Shown here in pieces: positions 31,891 to 36,023 of a stretch of 38,904 nucleotides of DNA. Source of the stretch: Acidimicrobiales bacterium (GTDB taxonomy: Bacteria; Actinomycetota; Acidimicrobiia; Acidimicrobiales; AC-14); assembly GCA_025463925.1 (NCBI GenBank), contig JAODBK010000075.1, positions 1 through 38,904 of the forward strand. The letters are read 5' to 3'. The position numbers and the translations under genes were made by a program. The notes beneath the pieces are model-generated. The model was not told the origin of the DNA. It ran no database searches and saw nothing but the letters and a program-made list of their open reading frames with translations. Every line of letters starts with the position of its first letter. Positions within the stretch are counted from its first letter, which is position 1.

Positions 31891-32387
31891 CGGACCGCCC
31901 GACCCCCCCGCACTGGCAGTGGCGCGAGGGTCCCGTCGTGCCGGGCCCGGCCGTCGTCTTCGACATCGATGGCGTGCTGTCCGACGCCGTCGGCCGCCAG
32001 CACTTCATCGACCGCACGCGCGGCTGGCGCGACTGGGACGCGTTCTTCGAAGCCTGCGGCGACGATCCGGTCATCGACGAGGTCGCCCGGCTGCTCGAGC
32101 TGTTGGAGGACGGTCTCGCCATCGTGCTGCTCACCGGCCGGCCGATGCGGGTGCGGCCGCAGACCCTCGCGTGGCTCGAGCGCTACAAGCTGCGCTGGGA
32201 CCTGTTGATCATGCGGCACTACGGCGACTACTCGGCCGCCCGCGAGTTCAAGCGCGACGCGGTGGACGACCTCCGGCACTACGGCTTCGACCTGCGCCTC
32301 GCCTTCGAGGACGACCGCCGCAACCGGGAGATGTTCCACCAGGAGGGCATCCCCTGCATCTACATCCACTCCGGCTACTACGACTGA
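31887..32387 (+). CDS. HAD-superfamily phosphatase, polynucleotide kinase 3'-phosphatase-like
   Basis: A 166-residue HAD protein. Motif I is D26-I-D28-G-V-L-S-D, with the nucleophile D26 and acid/base D28. Motif II is T83-G-R85. Motif III is likely K122 in REFKRDAV, and motif IV is E-D142-D143-R-R-N. The order and the TGRP and EDDR forms resemble the phosphatase domain of T4 polynucleotide kinase, which removes 3'-phosphates from nucleic acids. There is no kinase domain, so it is a stand-alone phosphatase; its substrate is unknown. The GTG overlaps the acs stop by four bases, so it is probably translated with acs, though no metabolic link is obvious. Confidence 0.82.
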
Positions 32388-32713: not shown

Positions 32714-33184
32714 TCAGTCGGCGGTCGGGCGTCCGGCGGCGTCGGGCATGTCCTCCGGTGTCGACTGGCCGCGGTAGCGCCGGGCGTCGAGCAGCCGCAG
32801 CCCCGGAAGGTTGCGGACCTCGAGGTCGACGAGGATCACTGCGGTCACCAGCACGGCGAGCAGGATGTGCCCGGCGCCGGCGACGATCCCGATGCCCGCG
32901 ACGGCGAACATCGTCGCCGCCGACGTGATGCCGCGCAGCTCGCCGCTCTCCGAGCGGAACACGAAGGCGCCGCCGACGAAGCCGACGCCGGTGAGCACGC
33001 CCGCGACGGTCTGCGGCGAGGATCGGAACGCCACCGCGGTCACCGCGGCGGCGGTCACGCCGATCAGCGCGTACGTGCGATCGCCGGCGGGCGCGCCCCG
33101 GAGCTCGCGCTCGAACCCCAACGCGAACGCCAGGCCGGCTGCGGCGAGGATCCGCCAGAGCAGGAGGACGTCGGCGTGGGTCAT
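32714..33184 (-). CDS. MgtC/SapB-family membrane protein
   Basis: A 156-residue protein with about four membrane helices. The family signature is visible as LAAAGLAFALGFERELRG followed by the helix with TYALIGVTAAAVTAV, and the Gly-rich helix VAGVLTGVGFVGGAFVF. MgtC family members act in magnesium-limited growth and control of ATP synthase in some bacteria, but small stand-alone versions are mostly uncharacterised. The usual conserved acidic residues in helix 1 are present (FERE). I chose the ATG at 33184, which overlaps the stop of the upstream Clp-N gene (ATGA); the longer frame upstream is Arg/Pro-rich and shadows that gene. Confidence 0.83.
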   Translation of the reverse strand: MTHADVLLLWRILAAAGLAFALGFERELRGAPAGDRTYALIGVTAAAVTAVAFRSSPQTVAGVLTGVGFVGGAFVFRSESGELRGITSAATMFAVAGIGIVAGAGHILLAVLVTAVILVDLEVRNLPGLRLLDARRYRGQSTPEDMPDAAGRPTAD

Positions 33185-33894
33185 GGCCGGTGGCCCCACG
33201 ACGTGTGGACTTCGGCGTCGACACGGTCGGGCGTCGCGCCGAGGTCGTGGAGGATCGTGGTCGCGAGTCCTTCGCCGTGAGTGAGCGACATCACGATGTG
33301 CTCGGTGCCGAGGAACCGGCACCGCTCTCGCCGGGCGATCCGGTGCGCGTGGTGGAGCACCTTCTTCGCCGGCGGCGCGAACCAGTGCACCGCTGACGCG
33401 GGCGGTCCTTCTCCGGCCGGCCCACCCAGCCGCGACTCGACGCCGGCCACGGTCACGCCCAGGTTCGCCAGCGCGACCGCACCGGCGCTGTCGGGAACGG
33501 CGAGCACCCCGAGCAGCAGGTGCTCGGCGCCCACCCGGTCGGCGCCGAATCGCGTCGCGGCCGAGTGGGATTCCTGGACGGCGAGCTTGAAGTGGTCGGT
33601 CGCCAGCCGCATGCGGCCCTCGAACACGTCGTCACGGCGACGGGGCCGGGCGCCCCGCGCCCGATGGCCCTGGTGGGCGGCTTGCTTGGTGACGCCGATC
33701 TCGGTGCCGATGTCGGCCCATGAGGCCCCGGCGCGGCGGGCCTCGTCGACGTAGTGGCCGATCAGCCGGTCGGCCAGGCCGGCCAGGTCGGCGGCCATGG
33801 CGGCCGCCGCCGCCAGGCGGTCGAGCGGCTCGGGCGAGTCGGCGTCGGTCTCGACCTCGGCGATGAGGGCGGTGATGTCGGGGGCGGGCGGCAT
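33181..33894 (-). CDS. HTH plus Clp-N repeat protein, possible regulator
   Basis: A 237-residue protein. After an N-terminal helical segment, residues about 54-78 (GASWADIGTEIGVTKQAAHQ) have the form of a helix-turn-helix. Two Clp N-terminal repeats follow, around residues 98-155 (AEHLLLGVL is typical) and 175-230 (LGTEHIVMSLTHGEG). There is no AAA ATPase domain, so this is not a Clp chaperone. Such HTH-ClpN proteins are common in Actinobacteria with mostly unknown function. It is divergent from htpX; a regulator of stress genes that senses misfolded proteins through the Clp-N part would fit, but this is inference. It overlaps the MgtC-like gene by four bases. Confidence 0.85.
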   Translation of the reverse strand: MPPAPDITALIAEVETDADSPEPLDRLAAAAAMAADLAGLADRLIGHYVDEARRAGASWADIGTEIGVTKQAAHQGHRARGARPRRRDDVFEGRMRLATDHFKLAVQESHSAATRFGADRVGAEHLLLGVLAVPDSAGAVALANLGVTVAGVESRLGGPAGEGPPASAVHWFAPPAKKVLHHAHRIARRERCRFLGTEHIVMSLTHGEGLATTILHDLGATPDRVDAEVHTSWGHRP

Positions 33895-33920
33895 CCGTCA
33901 ACCATGCCTTGACGCCGGGC

Positions 33921-33947
33921 CCGTCGTCAAGGGAAAGTTGACGACGG
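33921..33947. promoter_or_regulatory. Palindrome between the Clp-N gene and htpX
   Basis: Perfect 10-base inverted repeat CCGTCGTCAA / TTGACGACGG around the 7-base spacer GGGAAAG. Each arm holds a TTGACG, reading outward on both strands (33938-33943 on +, 33930-33925 on -), so it could include divergent -35 boxes or be an operator. A further GTCAAGG/CCTTGAC pair (33907-33913, 33926-33932) overlaps it. The HTH protein encoded next to it is the obvious candidate ligand. Confidence 0.5.
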
Positions 33948-33971
33948 AACCGGTAGGCCACGGTCTGCGTT
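33946..33971 (+). promoter_or_regulatory. ECF-sigma-type promoter of htpX
   Basis: GGAACC (33946-33951), a 16-base spacer, and CGTT (33968-33971) match the form of promoters used by extracytoplasmic-stress sigma factors of the mycobacterial SigE/SigH type (GGAAC, 15-18 bases, CGTT). Transcription should start about 7-12 bases after CGTT, next to the ATG at 33985. The ATG at 33976 would lie upstream of, or at, the start site, which supports 33985 as the real start. Confidence 0.6.
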
Positions 33972-33984
33972 CACAATGGGAGCG

Positions 33985-34845
33985 ATGAGCAAGAACACGA
34001 TCAAGACGTTCGTCCTCCTGGCCGCCCTCGGCGGGCTCATGGTGGTCGTCGGCGGCCTCTTCGGCGGGTCCGGCGGTGCTGCCATCGGCCTCCTCATCGG
34101 GCTCGTCTTCGTGGGCGGCTCGTACTGGTTCTCGGACACCATCGCCATCAAGGCGGCCCGGGCCCAGCCGGTCACCGAGCAGGAGATGCCGGAGTACTAC
34201 CGCGTCGTCCGCGAGCTCACGACCGCGGCCAACATGCCGATGCCGAAGCTCTACGTCAGCCCGGATCAGCAGCCGAACGCGTTCGCCACCGGCCGCAACC
34301 CGCACCACGCGGCGGTCGCGGTCACGCAGGGCATCCTCCAGATCTGCGACTGGGACGAGCTGCGCGGCGTGCTCGCCCACGAGATCAGCCACGTCGGCAA
34401 CCGCGACATCCTCATCGGGTCGGTCGCGGCGGCGGTCGCGATGGGGATCACCTTCGCGGCTCGCATTGCGATGTGGGGCGCGATCTTCGGAGGGGGCGGT
34501 CGCGACCGCGAGGACAGCAGCAACCCGATCGCGCTGCTCGCGCTCGTGATCCTGGCGCCGCTGGCCGCGATGGTGCTGCAGATGGCGCTGTCGCGGAGCC
34601 GGGAGTTCGAAGCCGACCGCAGCGGGGCCCGCCTCATCCACGACGGCGAGCCGCTCGCCCGGGCGCTGGCCAAGCTGGACGCCGCGGCCCGCCGAATTCC
34701 CATGGAAGTCGACCCGGCGCAGGCGACCAAGTACATCATCAACCCGCTGTCCGGGCGGAAGATCCAGTTCGCGAAGCTCTTCACCACCCACCCGCCCACC
34801 GAGGAGCGCATCGCCCGCCTGCGTAACCGGGAGTGGGAGCGCTGA
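33985..34845 (+). CDS. htpX: HtpX-like membrane zinc metalloprotease (M48)
   Basis: Membrane quality-control protease that degrades damaged membrane proteins. It has 286 residues, normal for HtpX. The zinc motif is H132-E133-I-S-H136, and the third ligand is E207 in [10 protein letters not shown]. Two helices occupy residues about 5-47, and two more lie after the active site (about 140-168 and 176-195), consistent with an active site facing the cytoplasm. I chose ATG at 33985 over 33976 because of the ECF-type promoter position; GGGAG lies too close to act as a good ribosome-binding site. Divergent from the HTH-ClpN gene, which suggests a shared proteostasis role. Confidence 0.93.
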
Positions 34846-34895
34846 CGCCCCAGTAGGGCAGGACATCGTGGTGGCGGCGGAGAACACGGACCACC

Positions 34896-36023
34896 GTGCC
34901 CCGTCGCCGACGCGTCCTCGTCGCCGCCCTCGCGGCGGTGGCGGCCGCCGTGCTCGGTGGCTCGGCGCTGGCCGACGTCCCGCCGATCGTCACGGTGCCG
35001 GAACCCACGACCACCGGTCCGCCGACCACCACCGGCAGCCCGATCCCGACGCCGACCACGAGCCCGCGGTCGGCGCCATCGTCGACCTCGCCACCGGCGG
35101 CGACCCCCACCACGGTGGCCGGTGCGCCGCCGCCCACGGACACCGACGTCGCCGGCCAGCCCGGCGTCGTCCCGCCGGAGTACCGGGCATTGATCGCGTC
35201 GGTGGTCCGTTCGGCGCCCAACTCGACGGACGGGCTGATCAAGGATCTCGAGGCGCTGGCGCCGTTCGGCGTCACCCCGCAGCAGGCGGCGCTGATCGGC
35301 TTCGGTCACTTCCCGGTCGCGGGCCCGACGCGGTTCACCGACGACTGGTGGATGCCGCGCTTCACGCCGACGTTCCACCTGCACCAGGGCACCGACCTCT
35401 TCGCGGCGTCGGGCACACCGGTGCGAGCGCCCTTCGACGGTGTGCTGAAGTTCGGGGACGAGCCGGTGGGTGGTCTGGCGGCGTACGTGACGATGCCCGA
35501 CGGCACGTTCTTCTATGCCGCCCACCTCAGCGCGTTCGGCGCCGGATTCTCGCCCGGCGCGGCCGTCAAGCAGGGTGACGTCGTCGGCTTCGTCGGCGAC
35601 ACCGGCGACGCGGTCGGCGGCGCGCCTCATGTGCATTTCGAGATCCACCCGCAGGGCGGGCCGGCGATCGATCCCAAGCCCTTCCTCGATCAGTGGCTGG
35701 CCGACGCCCGCGCCCACGTGCCCGATCTCGTCGCGGCGTACCGGGCGACGCGTGCCACCACGGTCGCCGACGGGGGCCACCGCTTCGACGTCGCCGCCGA
35801 CTGGTTCGCGGCGCCCGCGGCGTCGTCAGGTGGACCGCTCGGTTGGGCGTCGGCGCTCAGCCCCACCGGCGCCGCGGTCCGCGTCGCGGAGGTGCAGGCG
35901 GGCGACATCGGCGCGTGGCTGTCGTGGTCGGGTATTGCCGAGGCCGCACGGCTCCGTGCCGCCGCTTCTGCCCAGGCCGCCCTCGCCCGCTTGACGCCGA
36001 CGCGCCTGCGCGGGTTCTTCTAG
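34896..36023 (+). CDS. Exported M23-family (LytM-type) peptidase
   Basis: A 375-residue secreted protein. It has a signal peptide (basic MPRRRR, hydrophobic to about residue 25, cleavage likely after GSALA), then a Thr/Pro/Ser-rich linker (about 30-90) typical of cell-wall-spanning regions, then a helical segment and the M23 domain. Zinc ligands are H163 and D167 in HQGTD and H247; H245 in HVHFEIHP is the catalytic partner. The family cuts peptidoglycan cross-bridges. The C-terminal 110 residues are an Ala-rich extension with no recognised domain. The GTG start at 34896 has no clear ribosome-binding site. It is convergent with yajQ, with only seven bases between the stops. Confidence 0.9.
   Translation: MPRRRRVLVAALAAVAAAVLGGSALADVPPIVTVPEPTTTGPPTTTGSPIPTPTTSPRSAPSSTSPPAATPTTVAGAPPPTDTDVAGQPGVVPPEYRALIASVVRSAPNSTDGLIKDLEALAPFGVTPQQAALIGFGHFPVAGPTRFTDDWWMPRFTPTFHLHQGTDLFAASGTPVRAPFDGVLKFGDEPVGGLAAYVTMPDGTFFYAAHLSAFGAGFSPGAAVKQGDVVGFVGDTGDAVGGAPHVHFEIHPQGGPAIDPKPFLDQWLADARAHVPDLVAAYRATRATTVADGGHRFDVAADWFAAPAASSGGPLGWASALSPTGAAVRVAEVQAGDIGAWLSWSGIAEAARLRAAASAQAALARLTPTRLRGFF

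Follow-up and report, generated by a model that had tools for sequence, protein, structure and literature searches.

The window analysed here, the whole stretch of 38,904 nucleotides of contig JAODBK010000075.1 from an Acidimicrobiales bacterium, carries two genes back to back, clpC2 on the minus strand and htpX on the plus strand, separated by a gap that extends from the clpC2 start codon at 33894 to an htpX start at 33976 or 33985. The question raised by this locus is whether the two genes are controlled jointly from that gap or are merely neighbors. An earlier note on this DNA had read the gap as a divergent stress control region. Two separate modules, mostly made up of known circuitry, meet here in an unusual arrangement; the joint control implied by the earlier reading is at present conjectural, the nearness of the two genes having been found in this genome only.

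A ClpC2-type repressor and its paired operators

The minus-strand gene (33181-33894) encodes a protein of 237 amino acids with an N-terminal helix-turn-helix (HTH), two Clp_N repeats (Pfam Clp_N, E 4e-17, over two stretches) and no ATPase, the AAA+ module being absent. Residues 22-68 matched residues 4-72 of Rv2667 (structure 8ADA) with phmmer (1.2e-10), which places them with the ClpC2 N-terminal domain, and a family profile of the first 78 residues (seven rows) retrieved the same Rv2667/ClpC2 structure with an E value of 5.9e-24. In the AlphaFold model (mean pLDDT 86, below 50 at residues 75-87) a ClpC-type N-domain is accompanied by helices 59-65 and 70-78, which form the HTH (residues 59-78; 33661-33720, minus strand), and the residues around 59-73 are well conserved. 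A Foldseek search with this model placed ClpC1 N-domains at the top and the C-terminal domain of ClpC2 at rank 32. Equivalents of the ClpC2 residues R185, R189 and F172 are present, and that of F96 is not safely alignable. The protein is a divergent member of its family, with 41% identity to the best of 40 relatives and a long, unsurely placed branch in the tree, and it found no relative when used as the query against the genome_contigs collection. Judged by sequence, the HTH-ClpN gene is a ClpC2 orthologue.

Mycobacterial ClpC2 represses its own gene, and this repression is relieved by cyclomarin, according to the available text of Taylor et al. 2023 (PMC10030653); the earlier note had described the repressor correctly without naming it. 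The same text gives the operator as CGTCAAC-n5-GTTGACG, 1-2 nt before the open reading frame and repeated upstream in many organisms, and describes for mycobacterial clpC2 a leaderless transcript with operators over the putative -35 and -10. It also presents ClpC1 as an antibiotic target and ClpC2 as a decoy that helps mycobacteria tolerate cyclomarin. By analogy, ClpC2 very likely autoregulates in the present organism as it does in mycobacteria. The further suggestion of the earlier note, that misfolded proteins are sensed through the Clp-N part, would draw its support from the mycobacterial ClpC2 literature, in which relief by cyclomarin, roughly twofold heat induction and casein binding are described.

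The gap contains two exact copies of CGTCAA-N7-TTGACG, 29 bp apart. The gene-proximal operator, O1 (33896-33914), is separated by one base from the clpC2 ATG at 33894, and the second, O2 (33925-33943), has arms that extend to 33921-33947 and form a perfect 10-base inverted repeat (33921-33930 and 33938-33947, with a 7-base spacer). Both this repeat and the TTGACG reading outward on either strand (33938-33943, plus; 33930-33925, minus) had been seen before and are present as described. The single palindrome reported at that time is O2 with its longer arms, and the second exact copy, O1, had been missed. Order-1 simulations give 0.005 copies of the exact motif per window, against the two seen; across the 4.08-Mb genome, exact YGTCAA-N7-TTGACR occurs at O1 and O2 only, with one match to the reversed control pattern. 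Forms with one or two mismatches are common (316 genome sites against 151 for the control), so that only the exact palindrome is telling.

Searches of the order and the phylum, each contributing its 30 best loci, gave 48 clear clpC2 loci once L023, L024, L073-L075 and L149-L151 had been set aside as weak, short or of other architecture. Exact GTCAA-N7-TTGAC was found within 170 nt upstream in 41 of the 48, and spacers of 3-6 and 8-14 occurred in none of them. When up to one mismatch was allowed, the paired sites lay 28 bp apart in 24 loci, 29 bp in 14 and 22 bp in one (L018), and only L068, L069 and L071 had a single site. The operators usually end 1-3 nt before the clpC2 start codon and are present again at most of the clpC2 loci that were sampled in the phylum. 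A TAnnnT lies in the spacer of 36 of 47 gene-proximal sites (L069, which has no proximal site, is omitted), TA stands one base later in five, and six have neither; Fisher values for these proximal sites ignore relatedness. The pair spacings together with the TAnnnT indicate that the two sites sit on a -35 and a -10 separated by 17 or 18 bp. The putative clpC2 promoter in the window fits this scheme as TTGACG (33930-33925, minus), a proposed -35 element on sequence grounds, followed after 18 bp by CATGGT (33906-33901, minus) within O1; this -10 is weak and belongs to the six of 47 without TA in place. A scan of both strands of 33000-35000 found no consensus sigma-70 promoter, and a terminator scan of the same interval found none.

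The double operator in its exact form is present in 31 of the 396 genomes of the phylum, against 0 of 396 for the reversed control. A ClpC2-type gene starts within 50 nt downstream in 26 of the 30 double-operator loci that were fetched, 19 of these 26 lying in genomes already represented among the 48. The clpC2 pair is the sole exact single-site match in 13 of the 26 genomes with the gene; nine others have the pair plus one to four further exact sites, three have a single exact match at clpC2, joined in one genome by another elsewhere, and the R-type genome G003 has none. Double TTGAC operators also precede genes other than clpC2 at L205 (G263:C23:519113-519158), L191, L210 and L190; read from their sequences, the products are a protein resembling the mobile domain of PEP-utilising enzymes, two membrane proteins of small size and a short protein that has an HTH only, with QAAH, and wider regulons are possible. 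At the HTH-ClpN-like locus L024 (945-990) the spacer is 6 bases long, not 7, in both of the paired palindromes.

The sites could in principle belong to another heat-shock regulator, as the stress-gene context would allow. HspR recognizes HAIR, CTTGAGT-N7-ACTCAAG, and HrcA recognizes CIRCE, TTAGCACTC-N9-GAGTGCTAA. By inspection both differ from O1 and O2 in half-sites and in their order, and the sites follow clpC2 throughout the phylum; HspR and HrcA were rejected as owners of the palindromes on these grounds, and this attribution is considered extremely improbable. The binding of the palindrome by the HTH-ClpN protein, proposed in the earlier note, is by contrast strongly supported at the sequence level: the published ClpC2 operator is nearly identical, and the pair follows the gene across the phylum. 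The earlier reading is corrected in one respect, in that the palindromes belong in the first place to the promoter of clpC2 itself, as its operators.

Residue 74 and the operator class

Three of the 48 loci (L020, L136 and L138) have operators of the CGACAA/TTGTCG type, in the same geometry. An arginine follows KQAA in the ClpC2 proteins of exactly these three loci and L153, and the other 44 have glutamine (40) or histidine (4) at this position. Half-sites were TTGAC in 16 of 16 cases at H-type loci; at Q-type loci 140 of 154 were TTGAC, six TTGTC and eight neither, and at R-type loci 14 of 16 were TTGTC and two were not. Column 74 is the sole alignment column that predicts the operator class without error, in 68 of 68 usable rows (L051, an operator tie, is left out of this test); the runner-up column scored 0.90, rising to 0.94 when the set was reduced to 51 rows. 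In this match Q74 or H74 goes with TTGAC and R74 with TTGTC, and the window has H74 (codon 33673-33675, minus strand), at a recognition-helix position.

The genome_contigs collection (84,980 species) was then scanned for TTGTC double operators, and 25 stretches were obtained. In 21 of these a gene of the ClpC2 HTH family lies just downstream, and all 21 encode arginine at the position in question; one of them, L167, does not differ from L136 in the set of 48, and L161 has a frame of only 129 codons. No such HTH frame was found in the remaining four (two Lachnospiraceae, one Streptomyces and one Acidovorax). Pfam detected Clp_N in all five of the 21 genes that were scanned. The genes behind TTGAC double operators comprise 25 with glutamine, one with histidine (the window) and none with arginine. 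On the tree, residue and operator class each change three times, and the starred branches force two changes for the residue, so the independent evidence amounts to two or three joint switches and not dozens; a test on independent pairs accordingly had two to three pairs, too few to reach significance.

Several HTH-ClpN proteins carry a C-terminal ClpX-type C4 zinc finger (L157:1193-2065, L168:4302-5183, L173:3961-4830 and others). PF06689 was found in all three zinc-finger proteins scanned by Pfam. Of the 21 R-type proteins, 13 have a CxxC..CxxC motif, as does L153. Such a repressor combines the substrate-binding parts of ClpC and ClpX. The L167 sequence (PKRH01000025.1) is filed as Thermoanaerobacterales, and its ClpC2 is identical to that of G367, from the order to which the window belongs; the assembly is probably misnamed.

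In print, the C-terminal domain has been placed as the DNA reader, based on an R185A/R189A mutant of M. tuberculosis ClpC2 that binds DNA less well, as the available text of Taylor et al. reports (PMC10030653). On that account a C-terminal (Clp_N) helix carrying R185 and R189 reads the operator and the N-terminal domain only dimerises. The window protein has equivalents of both arginines, and R or K stands at each of the two positions in 33 of the 48 proteins, the window's included. The other 15 lack one or both and keep operators of the same family, and the operator class tracks the N-terminal residue 74 without exception. Structure 8ADA covers residues 4-72 and ends just before the recognition helix, and the C-terminal helix may have been proposed because the N-terminal structure lacked it. 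An HTH domain region in ClpC2 is also mentioned in the accessible part of a 2026 paper. Reading by the C-terminal helix is therefore judged improbable. Because residue 74 tracks the operator class, the sequences point to the N-terminal HTH, rather than the C-terminal helix, as the operator reader; the R185 and R189 positions may add affinity. No link between a ClpC2 residue and its operator was found in the published open-licence literature.

The htpX promoter and the abutting operator

The plus-strand gene, htpX (33976-34845), encodes an M48 membrane protease (Peptidase_M48, E 2e-35; NCBIfam HtpX models with E values down to 3.6e-99, at scores under their cut-offs). The ECF-type promoter GGAACC-16-CGTT pointed out earlier ahead of htpX was confirmed at 33946-33971, with GGAACC at 33946-33951 and CGTT at 33968-33971. 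An ATG at 33976, four bases after CGTT, shares its frame with the usual start of htpX at 33985, and htpX probably starts there without a leader, in which case the protein may have a three-residue N-terminal extension.

By itself the promoter string is within chance, since GGAAC-N16-18-CGTT is expected 0.66 times in the window by simulation and was seen once; it is convincing only because it is conserved upstream of htpX. Among 30 htpX loci from the window's order, 16, the window included, have GGAAC-N17/18-CGTT (equivalent to GGAACC-16/17-CGTT) in the 100 nt upstream, and the exact pattern is missing in 14. The N16/17 form was present in 11 of the 30, and other spacers (8-16 and 19-27) in one locus in total. 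Shuffled upstream stretches gave a mean of 0.03 and a maximum of one, and the antisense, reversed and coding controls gave 0, 0 and 0 of 240 stretches. This phylogenetic footprint (16 of 30 loci against 0.03) supports the earlier proposal that an ECF sigma factor drives htpX, and ECF-driven transcription of the gene is, from sequence conservation, very likely. A genome search for GGAAC..CGTT near stress genes, which had been put forward as a check, was run and was uninformative: GGAAC-N16/17-GCGTT gave 9 sites against 10 for the control, with no enrichment. One of the nine runs into the beginning of a groEL-like coding frame. All nine, among them the htpX site, fall within frames of 603-1773 nt that contain no stop, and in this GC-rich DNA a check by reading frame is therefore uninformative.

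Between O2 and the ECF -35 lie 2 bp, and the longer arms of O2 reach that element. If htpX is transcribed from near 33976, O2 covers about -51 to -33 of its promoter; if, in addition, clpC2 starts at its ATG, the two -35 boxes lie 15 bp apart. With this geometry there should be no room for both polymerases at once, nor for ClpC2 alongside the polymerase of htpX. The explanation that best accounts for the whole, and that is held with considerable confidence, combines ClpC2 autorepression at O1 and O2, ECF-driven htpX and a possible mutual hindrance at O2. ClpC2 would be a repressor that acts as a dimer, with an HTH at its N-terminus followed by a copy of the substrate- or peptide-binding N-domain of ClpC. 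At rest it would occupy both operators, thereby covering the -10 and -35 of the leaderless clpC2 promoter, and would keep clpC2 and probably also mgtC silent. Occupation of Clp_N by unfolded protein or a ClpC-binding peptide would cause ClpC2 to release the DNA and to accumulate. Read in the opposite direction from the conserved ECF (SigE-like) promoter, htpX would be transcribed by a polymerase that probably excludes, and is excluded by, ClpC2 at O2 or the clpC2 polymerase; such exclusion would place repression by ClpC2 on top of the control of htpX by its sigma factor.

How the two genes came together bears on whether that added input matters. The clpC2 gene lies beside htpX in none of the 55 other loci examined (the remaining loci of the 48 plus weaker ones, with flanks up to 1.5 kb), and selection for joint control is thus not supported by comparison. 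The exact operator was found upstream of htpX in the window only among the 30 htpX loci, so the ECF promoter does not depend on clpC2. A HAD phosphatase gene ends 47-153 nt before the htpX match in 13 of the 30, and in a fourteenth at 1132 nt. In the window, the C-terminal part of a HAD (PNKP-like) phosphatase (31911-32387, plus; Pfam HAD_PNKP, E 1.5e-11) is separated from htpX by about 1.6 kb containing a 91-codon frame, an MgtC-family membrane protein gene (32714-33184, minus; Pfam MgtC, E 2.8e-22) and clpC2. The simplest history would be a rearrangement that put clpC2-mgtC between phosphatase and htpX. The clpC2 stop overlaps the mgtC-like start in an ATGA (33181-33184), which suggests translational coupling of the two genes; they are probably cotranscribed.

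It follows a similar line to suppose that clpC2 and its operators simply landed here by rearrangement, O2 serving clpC2 and htpX answering to its ECF factor alone. The 55 loci without htpX, the 29 other htpX upstream regions without an exact operator and the 13 of 26 searched genomes with no exact site beyond the clpC2 pair all agree with such independence; the 2-bp distance of O2 from the ECF -35, the contact made by its longer arms and the overlap expected between the footprints of two polymerases do not. The chances of independence appear evenly balanced. Alternatively, ClpC2 at O2 represses htpX, and full expression requires both a free ECF factor and the titration of ClpC2 by unfolded protein. 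A site at -51 to -33 is a usual repressor position, the htpX product is itself a quality-control protease, and a few genomes have double operators before genes other than clpC2; against this dual input, no second genome with the arrangement appeared among the loci examined. Its prospects are put slightly below even, and repression of htpX by ClpC2 is likewise plausible without being probable. Somewhat more tentative is the combined proposal that a relocated clpC2 took htpX into its regulon as a two-input switch, with ClpC2 titrated by unfolded protein or by a peptide that targets ClpC, and that a one-residue HTH code has changed on two or three occasions, one of them in a separate class of repressors with, for the most part, a ClpX-type zinc finger. 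No htpX-ClpC2 link was found in the published open-licence literature.

Relation to known systems

With self-repression already published, the match between residue and operator is the one new result, and it is the part that a specialist would want to test. The recurrence of the same self-repression module across the phylum, together with a simple residue-to-base match, makes DNA recognition directly testable. If functional, the htpX arrangement would link a membrane protease to stress sensing of the ClpC type in the cytosol.

The antitoxin RelI (9SDC), partner of RelS, shares the N-terminal HTH family (profile E 1.8e-9) and, unlike ClpC2, has no Clp_N part; the available text on RelI reports no evidence of DNA binding (PMC13284704). 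In Mycobacterium tuberculosis htpX is a SigE target, as the accessible portions of two papers state (PMC10100808, PMC2851646). An ECF-type -35/-10 before htpX is common to that system and the window, and the motif is kept in many relatives of the window genome; the window promoter differs in having a ClpC2 operator 2 bp upstream. Compared with the mycobacterial ClpC2 circuit (Rv2667 and the M. smegmatis protein), the protein architecture, the operator sequence, the tandem operators, here over a proposed -35 and -10, and a start codon 1-2 nt after the proximal operator are alike. The differences are that each window operator departs by one inner base from the published 14-base consensus CGTCAAC-n5-GTTGACG, that the protein is a divergent member, that in the window an mgtC-like gene overlaps clpC2 downstream, and that clpC2 is divergent to htpX, with O2 abutting the ECF promoter.
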